NCBI RefSeq assembly: GCF_000195315.1
Contig: NC_015389.1
Span: 434,001 to 498,000, forward strand
Reading direction: 5' to 3'
Origin: Coriobacterium glomerans PW2
GTDB taxonomy: Bacteria; Actinomycetota; Coriobacteriia; Coriobacteriales; Coriobacteriaceae
Length of the DNA: 64,000 bases
The translations under genes were made by a program, and so were the position numbers. The stretch's first letter is position 1; each line of letters starts with the position of its first letter. Positions 6,346 through 58,023 of this stretch are shown here, one piece after another. The notes under the pieces are model-generated. The model was given only the letters and a program-made list of their open reading frames with translations. It was not told the DNA's origin and made no database searches.

Positions 6346-7002
6346 ATGTACATTGAAGTAGATTCATATTGCAAATCGATCAAGGGCGTCACCGTTCTCG
6401 AGAACATCTCGTGCGGTTTCGAGCGAGGTCGGGTGTACGGCTTGCGCGGAAAGAACGGATCGGGCAAGACGATGCTGCTGCGCGCCCTGTCCGGTCTGAT
6501 CTTTCCCACCTCTGGATGCGTGAGGATCGGCGGAAAGCGGTTGGGCAAGGACATGCCCTTTCCCGAGAGCATCGGCCTACTCATCGAGAATCCATCCTTT
6601 CTCGCGAAATACACCGGGGCCAAAAACCTTGAGCTCATAGCCGGTCTCAGAGGCGTCATCGGTCGAGAGGAGATCGCCCGGGCTATGCGCAGCGTCGGCC
6701 TCGATCCCGATGACAAGCGCCATTACCGGAAGTACTCCCTTGGCATGAAGCAGCGTCTTGGCATTGCCTGCGCCATCATGGAGAAACCAGATATCCTGCT
6801 GCTCGATGAGCCCATCAACGCGCTCGATCCAACCGGTGTGGCCCAGGTCGAGCAGGTGCTCGCCCGTGCTCGAGAGCGCGGTGCCGTCGCGATCGTTGCC
6901 TGCCACGACATGGAGGAGCTGCGCCTGCTCGCCGACGAGATTCTCACACTCGCCGAGGGGCGCATCACAGACAGTGAGGTTGTGTCCCATGAGCAAGCGT
7001 AG
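6346..7002 (+). CDS. ABC transporter ATP-binding protein (module A)
   Basis: A 218-residue ATPase of the bacitracin/lantibiotic-immunity type. Visible motifs are Walker A GKNGSGKT (residues 35-42), a Q-loop-like IGLLIENPSF, the signature region YSLGMKQRLGIA, Walker B DILLLDEP, and the switch histidine in IVACHDMEEL. The signature SLGMKQRL is the variant shared by BcrA/LanF-like ATPases. I start at MYIEVDSY (6346) because it aligns with the start of its paralogue at 27970; ATG 6322 would add eight residues. The stop overlaps the next gene by 14 bases. It should energise the two or three permeases that follow. The likely role is export or removal of a membrane-active peptide; this is inference from family. 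Confidence 0.88.
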   Translation: MYIEVDSYCKSIKGVTVLENISCGFERGRVYGLRGKNGSGKTMLLRALSGLIFPTSGCVRIGGKRLGKDMPFPESIGLLIENPSFLAKYTGAKNLELIAGLRGVIGREEIARAMRSVGLDPDDKRHYRKYSLGMKQRLGIACAIMEKPDILLLDEPINALDPTGVAQVEQVLARARERGAVAIVACHDMEELRLLADEILTLAEGRITDSEVVSHEQA

Positions 7003-7669
7003 ACCAAGACAGGCGAGGCATCTCATCTGCCTTATCGCCGCCCTTGTGACAATAGCTGCCTGCTATATGGTGGGGATGCGCGTTTCTCAGGTGAACACCG
7101 CTGTCACGCAACACCGCGTTCACACTCACGAGCTGCTCGATCCCGTTGCTCTCGTTGGCGGTCCGCAAGCTGCAACGGAGGCGGTCGACGGAGTCACCCT
7201 GACCGCGCTCGGGTGCGCTCTCGCCGATCAGAACGAAATGGGCAAGCTGCTTCCCGGCTACCGAGATGGCATGATTACCGCTGGCGCCGCATCCGATGTC
7301 AAGTTCCTCTTGGTTCGCCTCCGACTCGTCAATGGCTCCGATGAGAACAGAACGCCCGACCTCAACTCCCTGGCGGTGCAGGAGGGAGCTTGGCACAACG
7401 GGATCGACCCCGATCCGGCGATTTTCCGCGCGATGAATCCGCAGGCGTCGACCCTCGAGCTTCAACCCGGGCAGAGCAAAGAGGTGCTTGCTGTGTTCGA
7501 GGCCTATGATACGCAATTCGGGTTCAAGACCGCGGCATGGGACGGATTCGGGGGGCGCGGTCTGGAGCTCGTTCTGGCGACCTACCCGGACAAGGTATGT
7601 ATCACCTTAGGTCGCCCGGGCATCTTGGCGGAGCTCGAGAGCGCCGGCGGCAAAGGAGAGAATCAATGA
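6989..7669 (+). CDS. Membrane-anchored extracytoplasmic Ig-like protein (module A)
   Basis: A 226-residue protein with a short basic N-terminus, one hydrophobic anchor (HLICLIAALVTIAACYMVG, residues 11-29) and an exported domain. The domain carries LLVRLRLVN, a beta-strand with a conserved Asn, and later PGQSKEVLAVFEAYD. This spacing is typical of DUF4352-like immunoglobulin-type domains in lipoproteins. Three further proteins in this window share it (9332, 25555, 28617). The gene starts inside the ATPase gene and its stop overlaps the next permease start (ATGA), so it belongs to the transporter operon. It may be an extracytoplasmic sensor or substrate-capturing partner of the ABC complex. 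Function not known. Confidence 0.7.
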   Translation: MSKRRPRQARHLICLIAALVTIAACYMVGMRVSQVNTAVTQHRVHTHELLDPVALVGGPQAATEAVDGVTLTALGCALADQNEMGKLLPGYRDGMITAGAASDVKFLLVRLRLVNGSDENRTPDLNSLAVQEGAWHNGIDPDPAIFRAMNPQASTLELQPGQSKEVLAVFEAYDTQFGFKTAAWDGFGGRGLELVLATYPDKVCITLGRPGILAELESAGGKGENQ

Positions 7670-8493
7670 GAAGCATACTCGCTCTTGAACTCAAGCGAGC
7701 CTTCGGCGGTGCGCCGTTTGTTCTTGCGTTGATCATCGGCATTGGGTTGTCTGTGGCCAACATCGCACTTGTAGCGGCACCTTACGCCCTGTCGGAAATG
7801 TGGGCCGGCTGGCGCGACGGGGCCCAGGGCTGCCCGCCGTCGTTCTTTGGCACCTGGATGGGCCAGACACCCTTTACCATCACAACGTCGATATTCTACT
7901 ACGCGCTTCCGCTGCTGGCTTGCATCCCCTATGCGACGAGTCTGCACGCCGATCTTTCATCGCATTTCGCCACCCAGCTGCTGGTGCGAAAGGGCCGCGC
8001 GAACTACTTCGCTGCTAAGGCCTCGGCGACCTTTCTCGCCGCCGGGCTGGTGTCGATTCTCCCGCTCGTCGTCAACATCATAGGCGTCGCCTGTCTTGTT
8101 CCACAATACGCACCTGAGCCGACTGCGGGCATCTACGCGGTATCGGCAAGTTCGATGCTCGGAGAACTCTTCTACATATCTCCCTGGGTGCATATCTCGG
8201 TGTTTCTCATGCTGACGTTCATCATGGCGGGCCTGCTCGGGATGGTCTCGGTCGCGCTGTCCTTCTTTGTCCGCAACGGTTTCGCCGTGCTGCTCGCGCC
8301 GTTCGCTCTGTGCGTGGTCATCCAGCTTGTCGCGCAGAACACGGTCTTTGAGGGATTCTCTCCACTCAACATGATCATGCCTGCCCAACCGTTCCCGGCC
8401 GTGCTTTGGATCGTCGCGCTGGAGATGGGTATCTGTGCGGTCGCACTCGTCGTCGCTCTCGCTGTCCGGGGCTTCCGGTACGAGGAGCTGTGA
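7666..8493 (+). CDS. ABC transporter permease (module A, first)
   Basis: A 275-residue ABC-2-type membrane subunit of the lantibiotic-immunity class. It has about six hydrophobic segments: one near residues 15-36, a second at YYALPLLACIPYAT, and four more through the chain to the C-terminal MGICAVALVVALAVRG. The loop LHADLSSHFATQLLVRKGRANYFAAK after helix 2 is the cytoplasmic coupling region. It is clearly related to the permease at 26259, which shares LPLLA-P, LHA and the YxAAK motif. AAAGGAGAG precedes the ATG, which overlaps the previous stop. The next gene starts in its own stop codon (TGATG), so the two permeases are translationally coupled and probably form a heterodimer. Confidence 0.82.
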   Translation: MRSILALELKRAFGGAPFVLALIIGIGLSVANIALVAAPYALSEMWAGWRDGAQGCPPSFFGTWMGQTPFTITTSIFYYALPLLACIPYATSLHADLSSHFATQLLVRKGRANYFAAKASATFLAAGLVSILPLVVNIIGVACLVPQYAPEPTAGIYAVSASSMLGELFYISPWVHISVFLMLTFIMAGLLGMVSVALSFFVRNGFAVLLAPFALCVVIQLVAQNTVFEGFSPLNMIMPAQPFPAVLWIVALEMGICAVALVVALAVRGFRYEEL

Positions 8494-9335
8494 TGCGCCT
8501 CATCAGAGCGATACGCCATGAACTCGCTTTGACATGGAGCTCCAACGCATTTGCGCTCATTGCCTGCTTTCTCCTTCCGATCGCTCTGGAGGCCACCTTT
8601 CTCATCAGGGCGGTTCCTGAACTCGATGCGACGCGGAACCTTGATCATCTGAGGGGCTCCGACTCATTCACCGCTGGCGACATCATCGTATTTATCAACA
8701 AGGGCATGCCGCCTTTCGATCCAATCACGCGCAAGGTCTTCACCCTGGACATGATATGGGCGGCGCCTTATTTCCTGTTTGGATACCTGGCCTGTTCGGC
8801 GTTCTCGAAGGAGGCTGGTGCGCAGGCCTGTCAGATCGTCACGCGCATTCGCAGCCGCGGCGTCTGGATCGTGTCGAGGTGCGCGCGCGCGACGATCCTC
8901 GTGATGTGTTATCTCATGTGGGAGCTGCTGCTCGCGATGGCGCTCGGTGCCGTTTTCGGAGCCTCGCCGTCGCTGCAGCCGAGCGAGTGGAGCTCGGTGA
9001 TCTCCGACATCTCCGTGCGAGATCCCTCGTTCGCCGCTCTCACCCTCAGCTGCCTGTCTGTGCCCGCCACCGCGGTAGCCGCTGCGCTCGCCGTCACGGC
9101 GTTCTCGGCTGCCCTCGGTCCGCGCATCGCGTTTCTTTTGCTCATCGCGCTTGTGGTGACATCGGCGTATATCGCTGAGCCGCTTCTCTTCCTCGGTTCC
9201 TCGATGGAACTGCGCGGAATTGTGGCCACCGGTGAGTGGCCTGCCGCCTTGCGCGGGATCGGCGTTTGCTTTGCAGTGATCGCAGCATCTCTTCTATGCG
9301 CCCCCCTTATGGCGCGAAAGGCGGATTTCTTATGA
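8493..9335 (+). CDS. ABC transporter permease (module A, second)
   Basis: A 280-residue ABC-2-type membrane protein with about six predicted helices, for example ALIACFLLPIALEAT, YFLFGYLACSAF and the terminal GIGVCFAVIAASLLCAP. The large extracytoplasmic loop between helices 1 and 2 (about residues 35-85) and the cytoplasmic loop QIVTRIRSRGVWIVSRCAR match the layout of the permease at 27131, its module B counterpart. It is the second half of a likely heterodimeric channel with the 7666 product. Its start overlaps the previous stop by TGATG, and its own stop lies inside the start of the lipoprotein gene (ATGATG). Confidence 0.8.
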   Translation: MRLIRAIRHELALTWSSNAFALIACFLLPIALEATFLIRAVPELDATRNLDHLRGSDSFTAGDIIVFINKGMPPFDPITRKVFTLDMIWAAPYFLFGYLACSAFSKEAGAQACQIVTRIRSRGVWIVSRCARATILVMCYLMWELLLAMALGAVFGASPSLQPSEWSSVISDISVRDPSFAALTLSCLSVPATAVAAALAVTAFSAALGPRIAFLLLIALVVTSAYIAEPLLFLGSSMELRGIVATGEWPAALRGIGVCFAVIAASLLCAPLMARKADFL

Positions 9336-10069
9336 TGGCACATCTTGGAGGAAGATCTCGCTTGCGAGCCTTGCGCCCGACAGCATGGTGCTGTTCGGTT
9401 CTTGCCGTTCTCGCCGCGCTGCTCCTGGGCGCATGTTCGATGGGGGGGCACAACGCGACCGGCTCCTCGGGCGATGAGAGCGCGCTCGAGCAGAAAGCGG
9501 TGGGGGACTCTTTTCAGGTCAAGGCCACCGATGCGACCGACACCTCGAAGACGGTGACGGTCCAGGTGACGTTGACATCGTGCGAGAATGAAGGTGCCCA
9601 TCTGCCCGAGGGATACGGGATGATCGACCTCTCATATCTGTACGACGACGATCTGAAGACGTACAACAAGGAGAACGGTTACTGGTCGGTGGATGATGCC
9701 GGTGCCATCAGCGAAGGCTGGTGCCTGGTGGTCGCCAAGTTGCATTACAGCAATGACAGCGGCTCGGACTGTCGCGTCGATCTTGGCAACCTTCGCATCT
9801 CCCACCTTGATTCCGATCGAAACCTGGTTGGCGCCAATGAGGGGGAGAACTGGATCCTCGGAGGCATACAGACCAAGGAGGACTATTATCGCCCCCGGAT
9901 AGCAGCGCACTCGCAGGTGGAGTGCTCCGTCGGGTTCTTTATCCGGACGAAATCGATCTCGAAGAGCAATCTGCTGGTGATGGAGACCGCATCGGGGAAC
10001 TCGAGCGGTGCCAAGGTGTTCTCACTGGGTGAGCTTGGCACCCGCGAAGACGTTTCGTCGTCCAAGTAG
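9332..10069 (+). CDS. Lipoprotein with Ig-like domain (module A)
   Basis: A 245-residue protein with a type II signal peptide: basic start, hydrophobic core VLAVLAALL and lipobox LLGAC, with the cysteine near residue 34. A low-complexity Ser/Gly/Ala linker and an exported domain follow. The domain contains LVVAKLHYSN and AHSQVECSVGFFI, the same strand-Asn ... strand pattern as in the other anchored proteins of the ABC modules (DUF4352-like). It is expected to sit on the outer face of the membrane beside the transporter. The gene overlaps the permease upstream by four bases and is 18 bases before the third permease. Ligand unknown. Confidence 0.78.
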   Translation: MMAHLGGRSRLRALRPTAWCCSVLAVLAALLLGACSMGGHNATGSSGDESALEQKAVGDSFQVKATDATDTSKTVTVQVTLTSCENEGAHLPEGYGMIDLSYLYDDDLKTYNKENGYWSVDDAGAISEGWCLVVAKLHYSNDSGSDCRVDLGNLRISHLDSDRNLVGANEGENWILGGIQTKEDYYRPRIAAHSQVECSVGFFIRTKSISKSNLLVMETASGNSSGAKVFSLGELGTREDVSSSK

Positions 10070-22721: not shown

Positions 22722-25442
22722 ATGGCTGACGCGGCCGCGGCGGTGAATGGGCCGGAACCGTCGCTCTCACGGCGCATACGGTGCTCTCCGCAGATGGTGT
22801 GGCTCATCCTGCTTTTGGGTGCCCCGATTCAGATCGGCCTCGCGTTGGGTGCCCCCCGTCTCGACGTTCTGACTCGCTTCGTCGCGGCGGGTTCGCTTGC
22901 AGGCATCGCGGCGGCTGTGGCCCTGCTCCATGATGCAGCCGCGCCGCGCTCTGTCTTGGCTCCGCTACGAGATCGGAAGCTGCGCTGCGCGCTGTGCAGG
23001 GCAGCCTGTCTGCTCGTCGCCGGTATTGAGAGCGTGTCGATCGTCGCGATCCTCGCTGGCGCGACGGGGCAGATGTGGCTCGCCGAACCGTCTATTGCAA
23101 TCGCGAACGGGCTGAGCGGCATACTGCCGTGGGCGAGCGCGGCGGCAAGCGCGCTGTGCGCGTGCACGGTGCTGCTTGCTTGCGCTGCGGATCTCGTTGC
23201 GCCAGAGTGCGGCTCGGCGATCTCGGGCGATGAGGGTCACCGCGGCCGAGCTGCGCCGCTGCGGGCTGTGCCGTATGCGTTCGCGCTCATCGGCGCTATG
23301 ATGCGCATCGCATGGACGCTTTCCGCCGACCTTTTGGTGCCGTCTGACTTCGCGGCGCTGCTCGGTTTGATCGCGGTCGAGTTGTGTGCCGCGGCGCTGC
23401 TGCTCATGGATATTCGCCTTGTCTGCGTGCGCGTGATCGGTGCTGCGGCATCGGACGTCTTCTGCATTGCGCTCGGCGCGCACGCTGCGGGATCGCTGCT
23501 GGGCTCCCTGCTGCTCCGCTCGGTGCTCCACCTGCATGCCGTGCCCGCCGGCATCGCGATGGGAGCGGCGGCAACCATGTTCGCCATGTTGCTCGGCTTG
23601 TATGCGCTGATGCATCGCGCTGCACGTCGGCCCCCGGTCGAGACGCCGCCGGATGATGGCGTCCAAGACGAGGGGGATGCGCGGATCGCCCGCATCCGGC
23701 GCATGCTATCCGAGCGAGGGCTGGCGCTTCGCGAATCCGAGGTCGCCGCGTTCACCGCCGCCGGACAGAACTCCGAGCAGGTCGGCGTCCGTCTCGGCAT
23801 CAAGGCGTCGAGCGTCCGCGCGACGCTGCATCGCGTCTATCGAAAGCTCGACGTGCACGGAGCGAAGGATCTGCGGGCGCTCTGCGCCGCGTTCCCGTCC
23901 GCGCCGGCAGCCGCCGAGGGCGCCCCGGCGCGCGGGCCGGCGCCGGCGTCACCCTCAGCTCAGGCGCGACCCGCCGCGACCGCCGACGGCCGGGTCGCGT
24001 CGTTGGTGCTCGCGATACGTCAGCTGAGCGGTTGCGTGCTGCTGTTGCTGCTGTTCACGCCGCTCTCGCAGCGATATGCCCTCTGGGGGTTCGGGAGAAT
24101 GACGGTGCTGGGCTGCGCGACGGGCGGGACGCTGTTCGGTCTCCGGCAGCTGCATCGGCGCTGGTGCGTTCGCTCAGGTGCCTCGGCGCCCGAGGGCGGT
24201 GTGCTCCACCGTTCATTGAAGCGCATGCCGCAGCCGATGCGCTCAATACTGATCGGCGCAGTTGTCACGCTTGCGTGCACGGCTGCCGGCGCGGCGAGCC
24301 TCATGCGCTGGTATTCGTCTTCGCTCAAACCGAGCACCTGGTCGGCGTTCGAATTCGCATCCTATCTGCTGTGCACCATCGCGCTGCTCTCGTGGTGCCG
24401 CTGCCGCACCGACGCTTCCACGCAGCGCGCCGCATCTGCGCGCTCGGCCGCGGCCGCGGTGCCGCTCTCGCTGCTCGCCCTCCATCTCACCTCCGACGAC
24501 CTAGTCTATCTCGGGACGATCGCACTCGCAGCGATCCTGCTGGCAGCGACGTCGATGGCGATGCGGGCGGGCGGTGCCGAAGAGGGCCGGGCCGATGTCG
24601 CGTCCGCAGCGTTCTCATTCGCGGCGGCCGCGTCATGTCTGATCACCTTCGCCGCAGGGGTGGCCTGGGAGGAGCTCTGGCGCTCGCTGGCCATGTATTC
24701 GGGAGCCCTGTCCGTTCTTCCCTTCACGGCGCTGCTGTTCGGCGGCGCTCTCTGGCTTCGGATGCAGGACGCCGACTCCAGGGACTTCAGGGAGCTGTGC
24801 CCGACGCTGCTCGCGTTCGCTCTGTTCACAGGCGTGTATGCGCTGCTTTTCGGGTACGGCTGGCTGCGCGACGTTCTCATCCTGCTTGCCACGGCCGGAT
24901 CGCTCTGCGTCATCATCGGACGGGCGCGGCTGCAGAGCGCTTCGGATCCGCGCGCGCCGGCATGGATGGCGCTGTCGGCTGCCGGCGGGGTGCTCGGGAG
25001 CTATCTGATCATGAATCGCGTCAGCCGCATCACGCCGGACATCTTCAACGGCGCGCCGCTCGCCCCGGAGCAGCTGAGCGCGATGGCGCTGGTCACGCTT
25101 GCCTTCTCGGTGTTCTTCCTCGGCGCGGGGCTCGCGGCCCTGGGGCTGTGTCGCAGCATCGTCGGCTCGGAGCGCGCCGCGGCGCTGGTCGCTTCCAGCA
25201 AGCTTGATGAGGCGGAGCTTCGGCACCGACTTCGGGCGTGCTTCGTCTCCCGCGGGGCGAACGACACGCAGGCGCTCGTCTTGGCCGAGATCGCCTGCGG
25301 GCGTCAGGCCGCCGAGATCTGCGATCGGCTGCATGTCTCGCTCGGAACCGTCAACACGGCGAGAAGCGCCGGCTACCGTCTGCTCGGCGTCCACGACCGG
25401 CTGGGGCTGCATTCGCTGGTCTCCCAGCTCATCACCGCGTAA
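22722..25442 (+). CDS. Membrane LuxR-type regulator with two HTH domains
   Basis: A 906-residue protein that reads as two membrane-LuxR units in one chain. Residues 1-310 hold about nine hydrophobic segments. Residues 326-391 form a first LuxR-type helix-turn-helix (LRESEVAAFTAAGQNSEQ, then IKASSVRATLHRVYRKLDV). A Pro/Ala-rich linker (about 392-428) leads to a second block of about ten helices (430-825). The chain ends with a second helix-turn-helix (DTQALVLAEIACGRQ, HVSLGTVNTARSAGYRLLGVHDR). Membrane LuxR proteins with one C-terminal HTH are common in Coriobacteriia; a tandem form with both HTH domains kept is unusual. I prefer ATG 22722 to GTG 22719 for spacing from AGGCG. The next gene, on the same strand, begins ABC module B, the probable target. 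The signal is unknown. Confidence 0.8.
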   Translation: MADAAAAVNGPEPSLSRRIRCSPQMVWLILLLGAPIQIGLALGAPRLDVLTRFVAAGSLAGIAAAVALLHDAAAPRSVLAPLRDRKLRCALCRAACLLVAGIESVSIVAILAGATGQMWLAEPSIAIANGLSGILPWASAAASALCACTVLLACAADLVAPECGSAISGDEGHRGRAAPLRAVPYAFALIGAMMRIAWTLSADLLVPSDFAALLGLIAVELCAAALLLMDIRLVCVRVIGAAASDVFCIALGAHAAGSLLGSLLLRSVLHLHAVPAGIAMGAAATMFAMLLGLYALMHRAARRPPVETPPDDGVQDEGDARIARIRRMLSERGLALRESEVAAFTAAGQNSEQVGVRLGIKASSVRATLHRVYRKLDVHGAKDLRALCAAFPSAPAAAEGAPARGPAPASPSAQARPAATADGRVASLVLAIRQLSGCVLLLLLFTPLSQRYALWGFGRMTVLGCATGGTLFGLRQLHRRWCVRSGASAPEGGVLHRSLKRMPQPMRSILIGAVVTLACTAAGAASLMRWYSSSLKPSTWSAFEFASYLLCTIALLSWCRCRTDASTQRAASARSAAAAVPLSLLALHLTSDDLVYLGTIALAAILLAATSMAMRAGGAEEGRADVASAAFSFAAAASCLITFAAGVAWEELWRSLAMYSGALSVLPFTALLFGGALWLRMQDADSRDFRELCPTLLAFALFTGVYALLFGYGWLRDVLILLATAGSLCVIIGRARLQSASDPRAPAWMALSAAGGVLGSYLIMNRVSRITPDIFNGAPLAPEQLSAMALVTLAFSVFFLGAGLAALGLCRSIVGSERAAALVASSKLDEAELRHRLRACFVSRGANDTQALVLAEIACGRQAAEICDRLHVSLGTVNTARSAGYRLLGVHDRLGLHSLVSQLITA

Positions 25443-25472
25443 ACGCTCAATCTATCAAGTTCATAAGCGTTG
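25443..25472 (+). promoter_or_regulatory. Inverted repeat before ABC module B
   Basis: AACGCT (25443-25448) and AGCGTT (25467-25472) form an inverted repeat with an 18-base spacer directly after the LuxR stop and 83 bases before the first gene of module B. It could be a regulator site or a weak RNA stem. The evidence is position and symmetry only. Confidence 0.3.
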
Positions 25473-25554
25473 TTTACAGACAGCAGGGCATCTTCTGTGC
25501 CATGGTGCGATGCGTGCTGAAACGCATCGGTACAACCAACGGAGGGGAGCATCC

Positions 25555-26262
25555 ATGGCATTGGCGCGCAGAGAGGCGCGGTTCATCAAGTTCATCATCG
25601 CGACTGCGGTTGTCATCGCGATAGTCGCAGCCGGCTGGCTCGGCTATCGCCATCTTCAGGACCAGAAGACTGAGCGCGAGAAGCAGGCGTTCAACACCGT
25701 ATACGATCCTGGGCAGACCGCCGAGCTGGATGCTGCCAAAGATGAATCCTGCGTGCTCCCGAGCTCGAAGGAACCATATGCCGCCGGGCTCGGGTTCGTC
25801 TGGACGGGAACGCTGGAGGTGGCCGTGGAAAATGCGGAGATCTACGACAGCTTCAAGGCGAGTGGGCTTGCAGCCAGCCATGCCGGCGATTCGTTTCGCA
25901 GCGACAAACAGCATCCGTTTCTCGTGTGCAAGGTGCATATCAAGAACAAAAATGCCGTCCCGCAAGACGAATCGTCACGGACAAAGCAGAAATGCTTCAA
26001 CATATCGTTTTTGAACCTCATGCCTGCAGGCGAGGTGGCGTATTTCGATGGAACGATGGAAGGAGCCTCCGAACAGGAGCGTTGGGACTTCAAGCTCGCA
26101 CCCGGCGCCGAGCAGACCTACACGGTCGGTTTCGCGCTTGAAGGATCTCGCTCGATCCAGCTCAAAGATATACGGCTCACAGCGGCCATCAGCCCCGACG
26201 CCTATGGAAAGTACAGCTTCACATTGAACATAACCGATCATCGGACGAAGGAGCGCGCATGA
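25555..26262 (+). CDS. Membrane-anchored Ig-like protein (module B, first)
   Basis: A 235-residue protein with a basic N-terminus, one anchor helix (FIIATAVVIAIVAAGWLGY, residues 13-31) and an exported domain. The domain contains FLVCKVHIKN and PGAEQTYTVGFALEG, matching the strand-Asn and PG-strand pattern of the other anchored proteins in the ABC modules (DUF4352-like Ig fold). GGAGGGGAG precedes the ATG. Its stop overlaps the start of the permease gene (ATGA), so the protein is made together with the transporter. It probably senses or holds an extracellular ligand next to the permeases. No enzyme motif is visible. Confidence 0.72.
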   Translation: MALARREARFIKFIIATAVVIAIVAAGWLGYRHLQDQKTEREKQAFNTVYDPGQTAELDAAKDESCVLPSSKEPYAAGLGFVWTGTLEVAVENAEIYDSFKASGLAASHAGDSFRSDKQHPFLVCKVHIKNKNAVPQDESSRTKQKCFNISFLNLMPAGEVAYFDGTMEGASEQERWDFKLAPGAEQTYTVGFALEGSRSIQLKDIRLTAAISPDAYGKYSFTLNITDHRTKERA

Positions 26263-27134
26263 GATCGCTCATCGTCATGGAGCTCGACAAGGCGCTGCGC
26301 AACCGCTGGTTCATCGTCGCCGTCTCCATCGGGGTCATCTTGGGCGCTGCCGCCGCGATCGAGTGCGCGGCGAAGATCGCCATATGGGATGCCGCAAAGC
26401 TGGAATTCGGCTACGGCATCGGTCTGGACTCTCCGAACGCGCTGTTTCTCACGAGCAGGGGCAGCTACGGCAACTGGGTGCTCGTCAACGCGAGCGATGC
26501 GCTGTCCGGCCTCATCTACGTCTACCTGCTCCCGCTGCTCGCGCTCGTGCCCTTCGCCTGGTCCTACGCCTCCGAGCTGCATGCCGGCTACCTTATCCAG
26601 GTGTGCACCCGCGCCGATCGGCGATCCTATCTCGCGGCGAAGGGTGCCGCGGTGTTCGTCTCGGCCGCGCTGGTGGCGCTGATACCGCTGGCGGTCAACT
26701 TCATCGTGCTGTCCTGCCTGCTGCCTGGCTATGTTCCCACCTATCTCGACAATCAATACGTCGGGCTGTTCGACAACAACCTGCTCTCGGGGCTGTTCTA
26801 CCGTGCCCCGATGCTGTTCGTCGTCTGCCGCAGCCTCATCGACGCGCTGGTGTGCGGCGTGTGGGCGACGCTCGTCTACGCGATCTCGCTGCGGGTCGCG
26901 AACCGCGTCGCCATCATGGTCGTCCCCTACCTGGTCGTGCTGGCCTCCCGGTACGCGAACTCCTGGGTGTTCGGATGGTTCCATACGATCGGTCCGGAGA
27001 TCAACATCATCGCCGCGCTGAAGGATGCGTCGAACGCCCCGCTCGATCCGCTTTGGTTCTCCGCGTGCTTGGTGGCCATGGCGGCGGTTGCGGCGGGGCT
27101 GCTTGCGGCCGAGACCAGACGGGACCTGCTATGA
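26259..27134 (+). CDS. ABC transporter permease (module B, first)
   Basis: A 291-residue ABC-2-type permease of the lantibiotic-immunity kind and a clear paralogue of the 7666 product. Both have a first helix after a short basic N-terminus (MRSLIVMELDKAL here, MRSILALELKRAF there), a large extracytoplasmic loop, LPLLAL-P, a coupling loop starting SELHAGY and the YLAAKGA segment. About six helices are expected. The start overlaps the anchored-protein stop and the stop overlaps the start of the second permease. The two permeases probably form the heterodimeric membrane part of one transporter. Confidence 0.82.
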   Translation: MRSLIVMELDKALRNRWFIVAVSIGVILGAAAAIECAAKIAIWDAAKLEFGYGIGLDSPNALFLTSRGSYGNWVLVNASDALSGLIYVYLLPLLALVPFAWSYASELHAGYLIQVCTRADRRSYLAAKGAAVFVSAALVALIPLAVNFIVLSCLLPGYVPTYLDNQYVGLFDNNLLSGLFYRAPMLFVVCRSLIDALVCGVWATLVYAISLRVANRVAIMVVPYLVVLASRYANSWVFGWFHTIGPEINIIAALKDASNAPLDPLWFSACLVAMAAVAAGLLAAETRRDLL

Positions 27135-27970
27135 GCATCATCCGTCTGTACTGGTTCGACCTGCGTGTGTCCCGGCGGATGGTTCTCGCGTCGCTTGCCG
27201 CCGTGCTGGTCTTGGCCGGCCTCATCATGGCGAACGCGGCGCTCATGGCGTCGTTCTACGAGCAGCGCGCCGCGGCTTTCTCGTGGGGGGACTTCATCGC
27301 GAGCTGCTTTTCAGGCGCGCAGTCCTATGAGGTCACCCAGGGCTCTCAGTTCAAGCCCCCCGTGGGCTGGCTGCTGATATGCCTGCTGCTCGCCTACGCG
27401 ACCCTGCTCTTTCCGTACCGCGATCTCATGGGCGCGGGTCGCGCGGCGCTCGTGGCCGGCGGCGGAAGGATCTCATGGTGGGTCGCCATGTGCCTGTGGG
27501 TGATCACCGTGGTGTGCCTGTGCTGGGTGGCTGTCGCCGCGGCCGCTGCGGTGGCGACGCTCATCTGCGGAGGCCCGCTCACGCTCGAGATCCACCGCTC
27601 GATGCTGCTCGTCTGCGAGGTCAGCGCCGATCACATCTTCGCCGATGCGGTCGATGGGACCCCGTTTCTGCTGGTCGCCCTGCTGATGAGTGCGGCGCTC
27701 GGCATAGCCCAGCTGGCGGCCTCGCTCGTGTTGCGCCCCACCTTCGCGTTCGCCGCCGCAGTGGCGCTGCTGCTCGCCTCGGCGTTTCTCACGAGCCCGC
27801 TGCTCGTGGGCAGCTTCCTCATGGCCGATCGCTGGGGCGGCATGGTCAGTTCCGGGCTCGGTTCCGATGCCGGCGCGCTCGTCGGATGCGCTCTGCTCTT
27901 TGCCGGGGCCCTCGCGGGGGGTTTGTTGTTCAGGCGCTTCGATGTGCTCGATAAGGAGATGAATGTCTGA
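27131..27970 (+). CDS. ABC transporter permease (module B, second)
   Basis: A 279-residue ABC-2-type permease, paralogous to the 8493 product. It has a first helix at LASLAAVLVLAGLIMANA, a loop with WGDFIASCFSGAQ, a second helix at GWLLICLLLAYATLLF and four more helices to GCALLFAGALAGGLLF. Two in-frame starts compete; I use the ATG at 27131 because it overlaps the upstream stop by four bases, as elsewhere in this operon. The stop shares its A with the start of the ATPase gene (TGATG). It is expected to pair with the 26259 product. Confidence 0.8.
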   Translation: MSIIRLYWFDLRVSRRMVLASLAAVLVLAGLIMANAALMASFYEQRAAAFSWGDFIASCFSGAQSYEVTQGSQFKPPVGWLLICLLLAYATLLFPYRDLMGAGRAALVAGGGRISWWVAMCLWVITVVCLCWVAVAAAAAVATLICGGPLTLEIHRSMLLVCEVSADHIFADAVDGTPFLLVALLMSAALGIAQLAASLVLRPTFAFAAAVALLLASAFLTSPLLVGSFLMADRWGGMVSSGLGSDAGALVGCALLFAGALAGGLLFRRFDVLDKEMNV

Positions 27971-28620
27971 TGCTGGAGATGAGTTGCGTATCGAAGACCA
28001 TCAAGGGGGTCGAGGTCGTCCGCGATGTCAGCCTGAGCGCGGCTCCGGGCCGCGTGGTCGGCCTGTCGGGCGTGAACGGCTCGGGCAAGACGATGCTCAT
28101 GCGCATGGCGTGCGGCCTGATCCGCCCGAGTGCGGGAGAGGTCGCCGTGGACGGCAAACGGCTCTGGCGCGACATCGCGTTCCCGCCCTCGGTGGGGCTG
28201 CTCATCGAGGGGCCGGCGTTTCTCGACAACCGCTCCGGGACGGCCAACCTCGAGCTGCTGGCCTCCATCAGGCGCTCCGTCGACGCGGCGGGGGTGCGCG
28301 CGGCCATCGCGCGCGTGGGGCTCGACCCTCAGGATCGCCGGCGCTACCGCAAGTACTCGCTCGGCATGAAGCAGCGGCTGGGCATCGCCGCCGCCATCAT
28401 GGAGGCGCCCGACCTGCTGGTGCTCGACGAGCCGACCAACGCGCTGGACGTCGCCGGCGTCGAGATGCTCAAGCGCATCGTCGCGCAGGAGCGCTCACGC
28501 GGCGCCTGCGTGCTCGTCTCCTGCCATGACGCAGGCGTGCTGCGCGAGATGTCCGACGAGGTCATCTACCTGGCGGAGGGCGCCGTCGAGCGCCGCGAGA
28601 CGATCGCGGTGCGATCGTGA
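27970..28620 (+). CDS. ABC transporter ATP-binding protein (module B)
   Basis: A 216-residue ATPase, clearly paralogous to the one at 6346: MLEMSCVSKTIKGV against MYIEVDSYCKSIKGV at the start, Walker A GVNGSGKT, the segment VGLLIEGPAFLDN, signature YSLGMKQRLGIA, Walker B LLVLDEPTNALD and switch VSCHD. It belongs to the BcrA/LanF-like group. Here it follows the permeases, whereas in module A it precedes them, so gene order has been rearranged between the two copies. It shares a base with the upstream stop and overlaps the next gene by GTGA. Confidence 0.88.
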   Translation: MLEMSCVSKTIKGVEVVRDVSLSAAPGRVVGLSGVNGSGKTMLMRMACGLIRPSAGEVAVDGKRLWRDIAFPPSVGLLIEGPAFLDNRSGTANLELLASIRRSVDAAGVRAAIARVGLDPQDRRRYRKYSLGMKQRLGIAAAIMEAPDLLVLDEPTNALDVAGVEMLKRIVAQERSRGACVLVSCHDAGVLREMSDEVIYLAEGAVERRETIAVRS

Positions 28621-29297: not shown

Positions 29298-32231
29298 ATG
29301 GGTGTCATGGATTCCTACGCGCTGCGCTCCATGCGGCGCGCCCGGGCGCGCACGATCGTGTGCGCAGCCGGCATCGCCTTGTCCTGCGCGCTCATCATCG
29401 CGATCCTCACCACGGCGCTCTCCTTGGATCAGGCCCTGTGCCAGGCGGCCGAGCGAACCCAGGGATCCTGGCAGGTCGAGTTTCGCGATCTTGACGCCAA
29501 GCAGGTCGAGCGCGTCAGGAGCGACCCGCGCACCGAGCGAGTTGTGCTCGTGCGCGAGTACGGCACCGCCGTGCTGCCGCAGGCCGGCCGCTACGAACGG
29601 GGAGCGCACCTGGGGCTCGCGTCGGTGCCGGGGGCGCAGGAGGCGGCCGGCCTCATCGCGTTGCCCGAGATGGACCAGGGTCGGCTGCCGGAGGGCCCAG
29701 GTGAGATTGCACTGCCCGCAGAGCTCGCCGGCGAGAGGCTCTCAGGGGACGCCCAAAGCGAGGTCACCTCGGACGGGAGGCTCGCGCTCGGCGGCGCGCT
29801 GAGCGTGCCTCTGGGGCGCCGTGTCACCGACGAGGCCGCCGGCGGCGTCCGCGCTCTCGGCTTCAGCGAGCAGGCCCCCGAGGGGGAGGACGGCGCGCCC
29901 GTCGAGCGGCTCGCAGACGTGAAGCGCTTGGACTTTACGATTGTGGGCTTCTACCGGACAAGCCCGAACTGGATGCTCGGAGATGCCGGCTCCCTCGCGC
30001 TGACCGGCTGCGGCGCTATCGACGAGCCGGTCGGAACCTGCGTGTACGCCACCTCGACGGGATTCTCCTCGCGCGCCGCCGTCGAGTCCTACGCGGGCAT
30101 GTTCGCTCGGCACGGCGCCGGCGCCGGTGTGATGCACGAGGAGCTTCTGAGCCTTCGCGGCCTCGGCGCCCCCGGCCCCCTCATGACCTCGATCGCCGCG
30201 ATCGCCGCCGTGCTGGCCGTGGTGGTCGTGGTCGCCTCGGTCTCGCTCGTGCGGACCGGCTTCTCCGTCTCGGTGTCCGAGCGCACCCGGGAGCTGGGGC
30301 TGCTCTGCTCGCTGGGAGCGACGCCCCGTCAGATCCGACGCGTGGTCCGCGTCGAGGCGGCCCTGCTCGCAGCGGCGGCAGTGCCCGCCGGGGTGCTTGT
30401 CGGCCTGGGTGCGACGTGGGCGCTCTTTCGGACCGTCGGCGCCGATCTCGCCTCGATGCTGGACGATCAGGGCGCTGGGCTCGCGGTCGCGGTGTCGCCC
30501 TGGGCGATCGGGATCGCGGCGCTGATCTCGCTGGTCGTTATCGCCGCGAGCGCGCTCAGGCCGGCCCGCAGCGCCGCGCGCATCTCGGCCATGGAGGCGC
30601 TGCGCTCGACGCGCGACGTCCGGCTCAGCGGCGCGGAGCGCAGACGGGCCGCGCGTCGGGCAACTCGTCGCGGCCGACGGCGGACGGTCGCATCGCGCTC
30701 GGGCTCGGTCGCCGATCGGATGCGCCTCCGGCTTGTCGGCGTGGCCGGCGTGATCGCGCACCGCAACCTCACCCGATCCGGCCGAGCCGCCCGCATCGTG
30801 GCCGTCTCGCTGGCGGTCTCGGTCGCACTGCTCATCTCCTGCGGGTCGCTCGCGACCTACGCGGGCCTGGGTGCGTCGATCACCGCTGAGACCTTCGACG
30901 GGGATCTCGTCGTGAGTCTCACGCAGACAAAGGAGCAGCCCGGCGACCTCGATTCGAGACTGGCGTGCGCCGAGCGGCTGAACCGGGCGCTCGGCGCGAT
31001 CGACGGCGTGACCCCCATCGGGTACGGGACACAGCTCAGCCTTGTGTGCCGGACTCCCCCCGGCATACTGCGCCACATCGAGCGGCAACAGGGCGAAGAG
31101 ATCTTCGAGGCCGCCGACGGCTCGGCCTGCCCGGCGGTCGACGTCATGTTCCTCGATGACGCGTCGTGGGCCGACTACGTGCGCGAGCTCGGCCTGCCCG
31201 AAGCGGACTTCGTTTATCCCTCCCATCTGCGGGCGATCGCATTCAACCTCATTCTGGCGGCGAGGGACGCGGAGAACTACACCCGGTTGAAGCCCTTCGA
31301 GCGCACCGGGACCGTGACGCTGTTCACGCGGTTCTGCCACGACGACGGCTGGGGCTTCACCAGAGCGGTGCGCGCCGGCGCCGACGGCGAGCCGTGCGCG
31401 GTCTACGAGTCCGACAGCGGAGGCGAGCAGCGTCTGGTGCCGCTGGGGCGGGCCGCCTGCGCCACGGTCGACGTCGAGATCGCCGCGCTCGCGCAGACGC
31501 CGCCGGCGAGCCGCTCAAGTCTGCTGCGCTCGACGACGCCGACGCTGCTGCTGCCGCTGGGCAGTCTGCGGGTGATGGCGGCGGCGAGCTATCCCGGAGG
31601 CGGGGACGTCGCCGACGCGACCTATCTCGGCGATCCCCTTCTCATCGGCTCGGGTGGCGCAAGCGATTTCGAGACGCAGCTCTCGTTTCTCGCGCGCGAC
31701 AGCGGGGCGGCGGCCAGCGCGATGCGCCGGATCGTCAGCGAGAGCTTCACCGGCGTACCCGGCAGAGTCGTGTCGATCTACGACAACGCCGATGACGCTC
31801 ACAGGGAGCGGATCGCCTCGACGGCCATCCGGGTGTTCGCGTCGGCGTTTTGCGCCGCCGTCGGCCTGGTCGCCGTCGCGAACGTGTTCAACACGATGTC
31901 GACCTCGATCGCCATGCGCCGGCGCGAGTTCGCCGTCCTGAGGTCGGTCGGCATGAGCGGCCGGCAGTTTCGCCGCATGATCGCGCTTGAGTGTGCGAGC
32001 TGCGCCGTCCGCGGCTTGGCGGGCGGGCTGGCTGTGGGCTGTGCGGCGAACTACGCCCTGTACCGCGCGCTCTCCCTGTCGGTGAGCGGGATCGAGCTGC
32101 AGCTGCCCGCCGGCTGGCTGGCCGCGGCGGCCGCGACCGTCGTCGGCGCGCTGGCGATCTCGGTCGCATACGGGCTCGGGCGGTCCCGCGCCGCCAGCGT
32201 GATCGACGCCGTGCGCGGCGGCGTCGGGTGA
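29298..32231 (+). CDS. FtsX-like permease, first of two tandem paralogues
   Basis: A 977-residue permease with two FtsX units. The first helix is VCAAGIALSCALIIAILTTAL after SYALRSMRRARART. A large extracytoplasmic domain runs to about residue 290. Three helices follow, with the cytoplasmic SERTRELGLLCSLGATPRQIRR between them. The linker near 440-475 is Arg-rich, the second unit starts at VIAHRNLTRSGRAAR, and the last three helices carry RRREFAVLRSVGMS. Its N-terminus and these loops are nearly the same as in the 33114 protein, so the pair arose by duplication. It shares the operon with module B and likely uses the ATPase at 32435. Confidence 0.85.
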   Translation: MGVMDSYALRSMRRARARTIVCAAGIALSCALIIAILTTALSLDQALCQAAERTQGSWQVEFRDLDAKQVERVRSDPRTERVVLVREYGTAVLPQAGRYERGAHLGLASVPGAQEAAGLIALPEMDQGRLPEGPGEIALPAELAGERLSGDAQSEVTSDGRLALGGALSVPLGRRVTDEAAGGVRALGFSEQAPEGEDGAPVERLADVKRLDFTIVGFYRTSPNWMLGDAGSLALTGCGAIDEPVGTCVYATSTGFSSRAAVESYAGMFARHGAGAGVMHEELLSLRGLGAPGPLMTSIAAIAAVLAVVVVVASVSLVRTGFSVSVSERTRELGLLCSLGATPRQIRRVVRVEAALLAAAAVPAGVLVGLGATWALFRTVGADLASMLDDQGAGLAVAVSPWAIGIAALISLVVIAASALRPARSAARISAMEALRSTRDVRLSGAERRRAARRATRRGRRRTVASRSGSVADRMRLRLVGVAGVIAHRNLTRSGRAARIVAVSLAVSVALLISCGSLATYAGLGASITAETFDGDLVVSLTQTKEQPGDLDSRLACAERLNRALGAIDGVTPIGYGTQLSLVCRTPPGILRHIERQQGEEIFEAADGSACPAVDVMFLDDASWADYVRELGLPEADFVYPSHLRAIAFNLILAARDAENYTRLKPFERTGTVTLFTRFCHDDGWGFTRAVRAGADGEPCAVYESDSGGEQRLVPLGRAACATVDVEIAALAQTPPASRSSLLRSTTPTLLLPLGSLRVMAAASYPGGGDVADATYLGDPLLIGSGGASDFETQLSFLARDSGAAASAMRRIVSESFTGVPGRVVSIYDNADDAHRERIASTAIRVFASAFCAAVGLVAVANVFNTMSTSIAMRRREFAVLRSVGMSGRQFRRMIALECASCAVRGLAGGLAVGCAANYALYRALSLSVSGIELQLPAGWLAAAAATVVGALAISVAYGLGRSRAASVIDAVRGGVG

Positions 32232-32434
32232 GCACGCTGGCCGCGGCCGGCGCCGGGCTGACGTCTCGGCCGCTCATCCGACGCGGTCTTACGCGCGCGT
32301 GACGGATCTGTCACGCACTCGTCACCTTCGCGCAAGCAATCCGTGCGACCATAGATGGCGGACATCATACAGAGGGACCGACCGCGCTGAGCGACTCCAG
32401 CCCGGCCGGTCCCGCCGACGGGAGGGAGACCCCC

Positions 32435-33112
32435 ATGGCACTGCTCTCAGTCGAGCACCTCTCCAAGATCTACGGCTCAGGCGCGACCGCCGTGCGCGCC
32501 CTGGACGACATCAGCCTCGAGATCGAGGCGGGCGACTTCGTCGCCATCATCGGCTCGTCGGGCTCGGGCAAGTCCACCCTTTTGCACCTCATGGGCGGCG
32601 TCGACCGACCGAGCTCGGGCACAGTGCGCCTCGAGGGCAGCGACGTCTACGCGCGCTCAGACGAGCAGCTCGCGGTGTTCCGCCGCCGGGAGGTGGGTCT
32701 GGTCTACCAGTTCTACAACCTCATCCCGGTGCTCGACGTCGTCGAGAACATGACGCTGCCGGTGCGCATGGACGGCCGCGAGCCGGACGCCGCGCGGCTC
32801 GAGGAGCTCATCTCGGCTCTGGGGCTCTCCGGCAAGCAGGGCTGCCTGCCCAATCAGCTCTCGGGGGGCCAGCAGCAGCGCGTCGCCATCGGCCGCGCCC
32901 TCATGGCCGCGCCGGCGATCGTGCTGGCCGACGAGCCGACCGGCAACGTCGACTCGAGGAACTCGGCCGCCATCATGCAGATCCTGCGCGCGTCGAACCG
33001 CGATCTCGGGCAGACGCTCGTGGTCATCACCCACGACGAGGACATCGCCTTGATGGCCGACCGGGTCCTCGCCATCGAGGACGGCCGGATCGTCCGCGAC
33101 GAGAGGCGCTGA
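32435..33112 (+). CDS. ABC transporter ATP-binding protein, MacB/LolD type
   Basis: A 225-residue ATPase with LSVEHLSKIYGSGATAVRAL at the start, Walker A GSSGSGKST, the FtsX-partner Q-loop GLVYQFYNLIPVLDVVENM, signature LSGGQQQRVAIGRAL, Walker B VLADEPTGNVD and switch VITHDED. GGGAGGGAG precedes the ATG. It stands between two paralogous FtsX genes: 203 bases after the first and one base before the second. One ATPase probably serves both permeases, as one heterodimer or as alternative homodimers. The upstream gap may carry a further promoter; CATAGAT near 32350 is the best -10-like sequence but is weak. Confidence 0.9.
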   Translation: MALLSVEHLSKIYGSGATAVRALDDISLEIEAGDFVAIIGSSGSGKSTLLHLMGGVDRPSSGTVRLEGSDVYARSDEQLAVFRRREVGLVYQFYNLIPVLDVVENMTLPVRMDGREPDAARLEELISALGLSGKQGCLPNQLSGGQQQRVAIGRALMAAPAIVLADEPTGNVDSRNSAAIMQILRASNRDLGQTLVVITHDEDIALMADRVLAIEDGRIVRDERR

Positions 33113-33113
33113 G

Positions 33114-36074
33114 ATGGGCGTCATGGGCTCCTACGCGCTGCGCTCGCTGCGCCGCGCCCGCGCGCGCACGGTCGTGTGCGTCGCTGGCATCGCCTTGTCC
33201 TGCGCTCTCATCACAGCCATCCTCACCACGGCGCTCTCCCTGTGCTCGATGATGTATGAGAGCACCGAGCAGATCGAGGGGTCCTGGGAGGTCGGCCTCA
33301 GCGGTCTGTCCGACAGCGACGTGGACAGACTCAAGGCTGACGGCCGAACAGCCGACACCGTGGTCATGCGGGAATATGGCGTCGCGCAGCTGCCCTCCGC
33401 AGAGCAGAGGGGCCATATGGAGCGCCTGGCTGTCGAGTCCTCGCCCTCGGCCTCGACGGCCCAAGGCATAGTCGTGCCGCCACAGATCGATAGCGGCAGG
33501 ATGCCCGAGAACAGCCACGAGCTGCTTATGCCGGTCGCGCTTCGCGGTGAGCTCCTCGCAGGCGACGGTCGGCTCGAGGCGCGAAGCCAGGGAAAGATCG
33601 CACTCGACTGTCCTGTCACGCTCCCGCTTGGCGAGCGGGTGGCGAAAGATTCCGCAGGAGCGAAGACACATAGGCTCACGATGAGCGATAGTCCGGTCTA
33701 TGGCGAGGGCTCGGGTCTGAGTGAGAGCATCGAGGGGCCCGCGCCCGCTGAGTTCACCGTCGTGGGCTTCTATCTGCCCGGCTCCGCTTGGCAATTGAAC
33801 AATGGTGTGATGAACCTTGCGCTGACCTGCGATGACGGCGCGCTGGCCTATCGAGGGAGCACGGTTTGGGCGACGACGACCGGACTCGTCTCACTTGATG
33901 ACTTCAAGGCCTACGCGCAGGCGTTCTCCCGCGATAGTCAGGAAGGCGAAAGGGGCGCCTCATACGTCCCTGACAGTCTCGAGCAATCGCTTCATCTCTC
34001 CTTGCTGCGCTACCGTGGCATCACAGGGGAAGAGCAGATATGGGTCACGGTCGCGGCGATCCTGGGGATTCTCAGCGGTGTGGTCATCGTCGCCTCGGTG
34101 TCGCTCATCCACACCGGTTTCGCCATCTCGGTGTCCGAGCGCACCCGCGAGCTGGGGCTGCTCTCCTCGCTCGGGGCGTCTCGACGTCAGATCAGGTGCA
34201 GTATCTGCATCGAGGCGCTCGTCCTCGCGGCAGTCGGCGTTCCCTCGGGCCTCATCATCGGCCTGACTGGGACCTGGGTTGTCTTCCAGCTCACCGGTGA
34301 GGGACTCGCCCTGTTCATGCGCGTCTCCGGCCATGCTCCAGAGGTCGTCATCTCCGTGTGGGTGCTCGGCGTCGCGGCGCTGCTTTCGCTTGTTACGATC
34401 GCTCTGAGCGCGCTTTTGCCCGCGGTGCGTGCCGGTCGCGCCTCCGCGATCGATGCTCTGCGCTCTGCCGGCTTCGTCCACCTGAGTCGCGCCGAGCGGC
34501 GTCGGCAGCGCCGTGCCTCTCGCCGGGCGCGCCGCCGTGCCGTTCGGCTCGAAGGGAGCGGCGCACGTGCGGGCGGCGCGCTGGATCGGCTGCGTCTGCA
34601 CCTCTCGGGCGTGCCCGGTTATCTGGCGCATCGCAACCTCACGCGCGCGAGCTCGAAGTCGCACGTCGCCGTCGCCTCGATCGCCGTCTCCGTCGCGCTG
34701 CTCGTCATCATCGGCTCGTTCGTTCAGGATATGGACATGCTGTCCAGAGTCGCTGGCAGCACAGCCGAAGGCGATGTTCGGGTGTCACTCACGGTGGACC
34801 CTCGGGATGGCGCGACACTTGCCGGCACGCTCGATGTCGTCGACGGTCTGGATGCGGAGCTGCTCAAGATCGATGGTGTGAGCTCCAACGGATACAGGGC
34901 GACCACATACATCGAGGGCCTCGTTCCCTCTGAGATGATCGCCTCGTCTGACATGAAGTCAGCCGCGGACGGCACCGCGTGCGCTTCGTTCATGGTTCAC
35001 TTCATAGACGATGCGTCGTGGAGAGCATACGTTCGCGACCTGGGACTCTCTGAAGCGGACTACGCAGATGCGACGCATCCGAGGGCTATCGCCCTCAACC
35101 GGGTGATCGATTCGGACGGGTCATCCTACCGCTATAGCGCACCTATCAACCACGTCGGGACCGTCGAGCTGCTCACGGAGTTCGTCAGTCGTCCGGAGGC
35201 GAGCAGCCCCTCGATCGAGGTCGATGAGAATGGGAATCTTGTCGCGACGTACTACACACGGTCAAGTGCTGAGAAGCTGCAGGTCGCTTTGACGGATGCG
35301 ACCGTTGCCAGCGCCCGCGTCGAGATCGGAGCCCTCGCCCAGAGCGCGCCCGCGGGCATGTCGACCCTTATGCGCACGCAGCAGCCGAGCTTGGTTCTGC
35401 CTGAGAGCGCGCTGCGCTCTATAGGCGCCGATGCGCTGTCCGCTCTCGCAGCGCGCGCGCCGGGAACCAAGGGCACGGGACCTGTGCCCCTCATCGAGCC
35501 CGGCAGCTCGCTCATAGTGGACCTGTCGTATCTCACCAAGGACAGCGCGCGAGCGAGCGAGAAGATGAGGCGGACCGCGAGTGATCAGCTCGCAGAGATC
35601 GGCGGCGTGTCGCTGAGTGTGAGCGACAACGCATCGGCCGCCCGGGAGAGCCGCTTGATGTACGGCGCACTGCAGATCTTCGCCGGGGCGTTTGCCATCA
35701 TCATCGGCCTCATCGCGGTGGCGAACGTCTTCAACACGCTCTCGACCTCGTTCATGCTCAGGCGCCGCGAGTTCGCCGTATTGAGATCGCTGGGCATGGG
35801 ACCCCATTCGTTTCGTCGCATGATCGCGCTGGAGTGCGCGAGCTACGCGGTGCGCGGTCTGGCGATCGGACTCGCGCTCGCCTCCGCGGTGGGTTATGCG
35901 CTGTACAGCGCTATCAGCATGTCGATCAGCGGTCTTCCCTTCGGCCTGCCGCTGTTCTGGGTTGCCTTCGCGATCGGTCTGGCTCTGTTCGTGCTCGCCG
36001 TCTCGGTCGCCTACGGGCTCAGGCGCTGTCGCGCGGACAGCGTCGTCGAGGCGCTGCATGAGGACGTGCTCTAG
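33114..36074 (+). CDS. FtsX-like permease, second of two tandem paralogues
   Basis: A 986-residue permease with the same plan as the one at 29298: SYALRSLRRARARTVVC at the N-terminus, a first helix with GIALSCALITAILTTAL, and an extracytoplasmic domain to about residue 300. The coupling loop SERTRELGLLSSLGASRRQIR comes next, then an Arg-rich linker, the second unit from YLAHRNLTRASSKSH and the ending RRREFAVLRSLGMG. The cytoplasmic and membrane parts are strongly conserved between the two copies; the extracytoplasmic domains have diverged. The start is one base after the ATPase stop. It is the last gene of the module B region; no clear terminator follows. Confidence 0.85.
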   Translation: MGVMGSYALRSLRRARARTVVCVAGIALSCALITAILTTALSLCSMMYESTEQIEGSWEVGLSGLSDSDVDRLKADGRTADTVVMREYGVAQLPSAEQRGHMERLAVESSPSASTAQGIVVPPQIDSGRMPENSHELLMPVALRGELLAGDGRLEARSQGKIALDCPVTLPLGERVAKDSAGAKTHRLTMSDSPVYGEGSGLSESIEGPAPAEFTVVGFYLPGSAWQLNNGVMNLALTCDDGALAYRGSTVWATTTGLVSLDDFKAYAQAFSRDSQEGERGASYVPDSLEQSLHLSLLRYRGITGEEQIWVTVAAILGILSGVVIVASVSLIHTGFAISVSERTRELGLLSSLGASRRQIRCSICIEALVLAAVGVPSGLIIGLTGTWVVFQLTGEGLALFMRVSGHAPEVVISVWVLGVAALLSLVTIALSALLPAVRAGRASAIDALRSAGFVHLSRAERRRQRRASRRARRRAVRLEGSGARAGGALDRLRLHLSGVPGYLAHRNLTRASSKSHVAVASIAVSVALLVIIGSFVQDMDMLSRVAGSTAEGDVRVSLTVDPRDGATLAGTLDVVDGLDAELLKIDGVSSNGYRATTYIEGLVPSEMIASSDMKSAADGTACASFMVHFIDDASWRAYVRDLGLSEADYADATHPRAIALNRVIDSDGSSYRYSAPINHVGTVELLTEFVSRPEASSPSIEVDENGNLVATYYTRSSAEKLQVALTDATVASARVEIGALAQSAPAGMSTLMRTQQPSLVLPESALRSIGADALSALAARAPGTKGTGPVPLIEPGSSLIVDLSYLTKDSARASEKMRRTASDQLAEIGGVSLSVSDNASAARESRLMYGALQIFAGAFAIIIGLIAVANVFNTLSTSFMLRRREFAVLRSLGMGPHSFRRMIALECASYAVRGLAIGLALASAVGYALYSAISMSISGLPFGLPLFWVAFAIGLALFVLAVSVAYGLRRCRADSVVEALHEDVL

Positions 36075-52084: not shown

Positions 52085-52215
52085 TTGACGGCGACACTTC
52101 TCGTTCCTACGCTCGGATCGCCTGCTGGCGATGCGTGAGTAAAAACTTGTCCCCACGCATCGCTATACTGAAGCTACCTGATGGAACCGGGTAGGCCGAC
52201 GGCGGGGTGGTGTCG

Positions 52216-55356: not shown

Positions 55357-55386
55357 TTTTACTATATTTGCCAGTGGGAGGACGTG

Positions 55387-55473
55387 ATGAGGATTTCATC
55401 AGGGGTTACGCGAGGGATAATTATGTCAGGACCTAATTTTGAAAATCCTCTGCACGGGTGGGATGATTCGTAA
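55387..55473 (+). CDS. Possible small ORF between cas3 and casA (28 codons)
   Basis: ATG at 55387 is preceded by GGGAGGAC at a good distance. The frame encodes MRISSGVTRGIIMSGP, then NFENPLHGWDDS, and ends at TAA 55473. It lies 30 bases after the cas3 stop and well upstream of the Cascade promoter candidate, so it would be on the cas3 transcript. There is no recognisable family. Support is limited to the strong ribosome binding site and the non-random look of the C-terminus. Confidence 0.35.
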   Translation: MRISSGVTRGIIMSGPNFENPLHGWDDS

Positions 55474-57996: not shown

Positions 57997-58023
57997 GAAA
58001 TTATCACATCGAAAGGAACCAAC

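Follow-up and report, generated by a model that had tools for sequence, protein, structure and literature searches.

We found that one gene in a 64,000-nucleotide stretch of Coriobacterium glomerans PW2 (contig NC_015389.1; hereafter, the window) encodes a membrane protein in which a single chain contains two LuxR-type helix-turn-helix (HTH) domains of different kinds, and that proteins with these two domains in the same order recur across Coriobacteriales. LuxR/NarL-type regulators are dimers with one HTH per chain. From sequence comparisons, we consider it likely that this protein is a membrane one-component activator with two unlike HTHs, each placed on its own half of one operator whose halves also differ. 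The gene and the regions of its product are as follows:

22722-25442, forward strand: double-HTH membrane regulator gene, 906 aa; ATG start with an alternative GTG at 22719; stop-free frame
22797-23615, forward strand: membrane block 1, residues 26-298; 8-10 predicted helices
23694-23894, forward strand: HTH type A, residues 325-391; GerE 34 bits; NarL fold
23895-23993, forward strand: Pro/Ala-rich linker, residues 392-424, from the translation; no structure predicted
24006-25145, forward strand: membrane block 2, residues 429-808; 12 predicted helices (AF2, hydropathy)
25218-25436, forward strand: HTH type B, residues 833-905; GerE 24.6 bits; RcsB/NarL fold

The original prediction, made from the letters of the sequence, had read two complete LuxR-type HTHs in one membrane chain, and this reading held. 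The GerE model (PF00196) matched two stretches of the full protein with 48.8 bits (Pfam cut-off 23.5); scored singly, the middle HTH reached 34 bits, giving it HMM support of its own, and the C-terminal HTH reached 24.6 bits, both above the cut-off of 23.5. With the type-A profile, itself partly built from HTH A, this domain scored 98 bits at residues 325-396, and with the type-B profile, likewise partly built from HTH B, the second scored 103 bits at residues 833-905. Searching the PDB with the profile of HTH A relatives matched DesR, GerE, FixJ, and NarL, and the profile of HTH B relatives matched SsrB and EsrB. The AF2 model gave pLDDT values of about 75-84 for residues 320-390 and 57-86 for residues 826-906. 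Structure comparison of this model superposed residues 328-392 on the NarL-DNA structure 1je8 (Z 10.2, 1.5 Å, 63 residues) and residues 839-904 on NarL/RcsB (Z about 10); both HTHs are thus predicted to have the four-helix NarL-like fold.

In this single-contig, complete 2.1-Mb genome, the frame at 22722-25442 runs through 906 codons with no internal stop, as expected of a single gene, and the predicted Pro/Ala-rich linker between the units is present at about residues 392-424. Nine or ten helices had been expected ahead of each HTH; this roughly stands for HTH A, which is preceded by 8 helices (AF2 secondary structure, low confidence) to 10 (hydropathy), but 12 are predicted between the HTHs. 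Since 12 is an even number, both HTHs would lie on the same side of the membrane. The membrane parts were modeled poorly by AF2, run with eight sequences (pLDDT about 40; mean 45). The two HTHs are homologous to each other (hhalign 98%, 1.4 × 10−13), in keeping with the proposed fusion of two single units, but alignment detected no homology between the two membrane blocks, and the A+B pair appears to be old. Duplication of a whole TM-HTH unit within the protein was rejected, the membrane blocks aligning at 0.2% probability.

A search for other proteins of this order had been suggested alongside the original prediction. We performed it with separate A and B HTH profiles, searching 299 Coriobacteriales genomes with the B profile and classifying every frame at the loci found. 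This resulted in about 90 proteins with both HTHs, in which type A was always ahead of type B; both profiles were made from the same proteins, and the exact count depends on that while the ordering does not. Wherever a clear type-B HTH was found in these genomes (B profile score of at least 60 bits), a type-A HTH preceded it in the same chain, bar one truncated frame (L100), and B ahead of A was never seen across the 299 genomes. Ordinary single-HTH LuxRs scored nearly equally with both profiles and were easily told from double ones. Across 396 genomes of the phylum, type-B matches at E ≤ 1 × 10−15 all fell inside Coriobacteriales. Used as a query for related loci, the full window protein returned no relative, whereas a narrow HTH-A alignment returned five named loci, from uncultured Coriobacteriaceae, Collinsella sp., and Candidatus Limicola. 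Full-length relatives of the window protein in the same family are 650-930 aa long and 25-30% identical, and each has two GerE stretches.

We then built a tree from the A and B domains (90 each) together with 29 single HTHs, in which labels changed once for A and three times for B, versus about 68 changes for shuffled labels; the tree rests on few columns and its deep branches are weakly supported, though the A/B separation is plain. Because the A domains group apart from the B domains, the ordered pair probably arose once. Over the 90 proteins, type A keeps an RE pair and K60, with R at column 56 in 93%, and lacks a histidine present in 89% of single LuxRs. Type B has TQ or LQ in place of RE, N or K at column 51, and R54 in 90%, and is often missing K60. 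These differences fall at positions expected to contact DNA or a partner.

The distance from A to B ranges from 10 to about 500 residues across the family. The shortest group of spacers, at 10-20 residues, comprises 12 proteins, and the others lie at about 145-170, about 200-260, and about 270-508 residues. By hydropathy, modal helix numbers in the spacers are 0, 4, 6, 10, and 12, and the count between A and B is even in 63 of the 78 proteins with spacers longer than 100 residues, so both HTHs can be cytoplasmic. Where A and B are adjacent, the membrane segments come after B. One such adjacent-pair protein, L048 (9326-11968), ends in a PASTA domain; others with membrane segments after B are L105, L104, L110, and L112. 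By these comparisons, A and B form an ancient unit that has been conserved while the membrane parts around it changed.

This bears on the possibility that the window protein is a local oddity, produced by recent fusion of a pair of ordinary 12-TM LuxR genes or by a lost stop that joined two genes. Its second half does look like a 12-TM + HTH unit, and single units are plentiful in Coriobacteriia (PMC9734109), but about 90 examples in many species with a constant A-then-B order, A and B clades separate from single HTHs, and membrane blocks without homology make such an origin extremely improbable.

Downstream of the regulator gene, after a gap of 112 bp, lies a tightly packed operon:

25555-26262, forward strand: operon gene 1, membrane-anchored protein, DUF5027-like; SD GGAGGGG; weak Pfam match of 11.4 bits, below cut-off
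26259-27134, forward strand: permease 1; no Pfam match; position kept in L040, L041, L042, L044, and L046
27131-27970, forward strand: permease 2; no Pfam match; position conserved; overlapping starts
27970-28620, forward strand: ABC ATPase; best NCBIfam model TIGR03740 (lantibiotic protection), 154.7 bits
28617-29255, forward strand: operon last gene, DUF5028-like membrane-anchored protein; relatives at the same place

The same gene order is found behind a double-HTH gene at L040, L041, L042, L044, and L046, and in part at L039 and L043. At the first five of these loci, ATPases that are 48-59% identical occupy the same place, and at L044 the relatives of the first and last operon genes match DUF5027 at 16.0 bits, below cut-off, and DUF5028 at 26.8 bits against a cut-off of 29.9. 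Over 89 loci, ABC ATPases cluster 1.5-4.5 kb downstream, with 26 on the same strand versus 0 on the opposite strand and a handful in other bins. LanFEG (TIGR03740) is nearest to the window ATPase and likewise has two permeases and membrane-anchored accessory proteins; however, the window ATPase scores 154.7 bits, below the TIGR03740 cut-off of 309.75, and its permeases have no Pfam match. Conserved synteny and the candidate site described below support the downstream ABC operon as a putative target of the regulator. The neighboring ABC module and a C39-like protein had been named as the obvious targets; the former is supported, whereas the upstream C39-like gene was rejected as a conserved partner, with no relative at the homologous loci examined.

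Several other arrangements were observed around these genes. A region of about 100 bp separates two divergently transcribed, different double-HTH regulator genes at L041 (G010:C22; 4909-7518 and 7620-9800) and also at L042 (G015:C61); the second regulator gene heads the same ABC operon. Directly 3′ of the window operon, at 29298-36074, MacB/FtsX-type permeases of 977 and 986 aa with near-identical N-termini surround an ATPase. A second ABC module at window 6758-10069, with a permease related to those of double-HTH-associated operons in other species, has no double-HTH gene adjoining it. Further away in the window, genes at 52207-62013 resemble, by eye, a type I-E CRISPR-Cas operon.

The gap after the regulator gene contains two overlapping candidate elements:

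25461-25483, forward strand: candidate bipartite operator TCATAAGCGTTGTTTACAGACAG (KCAT-N11-ACAGAC), from anchored alignment and site statistics
25477-25506, forward strand: candidate promoter, with -35-like CAGACA at 25477-25482, 18 bp, and weak -10-like CATGGT at 25501-25506

The 11-mer GTTTACAGACA occurs exactly once in the genome, in this gap. TACAGAC was found in 13 of 90 downstream gaps, in one orientation only, with 0.58 expected, and it lies 32-34 bp past the stop in nine of these 13 loci. Anchored alignment of 11 gaps placed a CAT part about 14 bp 5′ of ACAGAC. In the promoter alignment of the same number of gaps, 10 of 11 have A at +26 and T at +30, with the window one base longer; given this -10-like spacing, we read CAGACA as a -35-like hexamer. 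The candidate promoter is weak, and a simple sigma-70 scan of the region yielded no promoter. The site matrix was made from 11 sites only, all of one architecture and including the window site, and other clusters were held out. In these held-out clusters, 10 of the 24 ACAGAC copies close to a double-HTH gene had CAT exactly 14 bp to their 5′ side, as against 2 of 171 copies distant from such genes (p = 6.5 × 10−9), and no other CAT-ACAGAC offset was enriched. The strict full site was found at 22 of the 90 double-HTH genes (16 of 65 clusters), whereas the surroundings of 29 single-HTH LuxR genes gave one ACAGAC and 0 full sites. Full sites come from all architectures, including the adjacent pair L126, and L108 has a TACATAC variant. 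The consensus, KCATMNC-NNNTG-NYKACAGACR, is asymmetric and spans 22 bp; dyad symmetry was tested and none was clear.

Related sequences occur elsewhere. The window's genome (G000:C1) matches the loose pattern CAT-N10-KACAGAC at 12 places and the reversed pattern at 3; the 12 matches, of which CATTGCATGTTTCTACAGAC at 1898247 is an example, are possible further candidate targets. The double-HTH genes of about 455 aa at L089-L107 (g18, family f5) often have a related but different site about 15-80 bp upstream (for example, GCATAGCGTCCACGACATGACG at L102), which suggests self-regulation through a site with a changed right half.

ACAGAC overlaps the -35-like hexamer, and some of the loci have homologous operons, as would be seen if the conserved site belonged to another regulator or were a plain conserved promoter inherited with a homologous transporter operon. 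We consider this unlikely, since held-out sites adjoin double-HTH genes of other architectures and with other neighbors, conserved bases run 15 bp beyond the -35 on its 5′ side, the 29 single-HTH LuxR genes examined have 0 sites, and at L057, where an ABC operon diverges from the regulator gene, the site falls in the region between the two and points toward the operon.

It is also doubtful, if less so, that DNA binding falls to one HTH alone, acting in a two-chain homodimer, leaving the other as a relic or protein-contact domain. B has neither the helix-1 RE pair nor the lysine that follows the recognition helix, and A is without the histidine common among single LuxRs, both of which would fit such a division of labor; however, the recognition helices are conserved by type over the 90 proteins (R at column 56 of A and column 54 of B), a relic would not persist in every member, and the common site is asymmetric with no dyad. 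Two different DNA-binding domains might instead sit at separate promoters, so that one membrane sensor serves two operons, as the original prediction had offered as one option. We found no evidence for this, and regard it as very unlikely: the A-B gap is 10-20 residues in a dozen members, and the same half-sites recur at one fixed spacing. The other option offered, a monomer on two half-sites, gains indirect support from the asymmetric bipartite site beside genes across architectures, while pairing within a monomer is inferred only.

Thus, we favor the two unlike HTHs acting together on one operator. The polytopic membrane part would sense a signal. Given the ABC transporter encoded alongside, this signal is probably a membrane-active compound or peptide that the transporter handles. 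HTH A and HTH B, both predicted to be cytoplasmic, would form a built-in heterotypic pair that sits on one 22-bp asymmetric operator, KCAT-N11-ACAGAC, overlapping the transporter operon's -35 some 30 bp past the end of the regulator gene. Two equal HTHs would fit a dyad, whereas unlike HTHs sitting next to each other would fit an asymmetric site with two parts at a constant spacing, and since the site is unchanged whether the A-B gap is 10 or 400 residues, the HTHs would meet on DNA regardless of the linker. The predicted A-B pair probably clamps this shared site and turns on the adjoining transporter genes. The regulator may do so as class II activators do, which fits a site over the -35 with a weak -10. 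Counting against the explanation as a whole are the window promoter, with its weak -10 and the 18-bp spacer that it needs, the poor model of the membrane parts, and the presence of the strict site at only 22 of 90 double-HTH genes. We infer binding of the protein to the site, the assignment of each HTH to a half, pairing within a chain, the positive direction of control, and the signal; A of one chain could also pair with B of another.

The closest described proteins are the 10-12-TM LuxRs, including DadR, HcdR, and CadR, which are 12-TM LuxRs of Coriobacteriia and activators (PMC9734109). Like the window protein, they are one-component regulators of the same class with a polytopic block followed by a LuxR-type HTH, and their genes adjoin their targets; they differ in having a single C-terminal HTH and in that their described targets are metabolic enzymes rather than ABC operons (PMC9734109). 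The window protein, with two HTHs, falls outside this single-HTH definition, single-HTH domains group apart from A and B in our tree, and the helix counts compare as 8-10 before A and 12 before B, both approximate. A term search of that paper returned no operator motif (PMC9734109). TTRs also join a DNA-binding domain to membrane segments in one chain and are enriched in Coriobacteriia, but are mostly single-pass, with up to 22 TM regions in the survey; a term search of its text returned neither LuxR nor a pair of HTHs (PMC10269533). A survey of actinobacterial LuxRs names proteins with a single LuxR domain and others in which it is fused to different domains; Coriobacteria are not mentioned (PMC3466318).

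The NarL/FixJ/RcsB and LuxR/TraR domains (PF00196) share the fold of both HTHs, and their operators are about 20 bp, but they act as two-chain dimers with one HTH each and usually on dyad sites, whereas here unlike HTHs share one chain and the site is asymmetric. In Streptomyces, BldM and WhiI reportedly form a heterodimer whose LuxR-type HTHs, unlike each other, work together at a single promoter; BldM and WhiI are separate soluble proteins, not one membrane chain. We found no published account of two LuxR HTHs in one chain in the open-access literature. The folds and the sensing mode are known, and the arrangement and the candidate operator are, judged by open-access text, undescribed. The window protein has the features of the proposed double-HTH A/B family, namely A then B and KCAT-N11-ACAGAC adjoining the gene, its own site being part of the training set.

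More broadly, though with less assurance than for the window protein itself, we lean toward the view that Coriobacteriales evolved a single time, and then diversified, membrane regulators carrying their own heterodimer, in which unlike HTHs in fixed order would jointly read one asymmetric operator while the sensor parts (0, 4, 6, 10, or 12 helices, PASTA, or other tails) were freely exchanged. If true, two different HTHs hard-wired into one membrane chain and reading a lopsided site would represent a regulator design of its own, one that bears on how a membrane-fixed DNA-binding protein finds and holds its promoter. The concrete candidate operator would let the targets of poorly understood regulators of gut Coriobacteriales, in Collinsella-like bacteria and other families of the order, be predicted.
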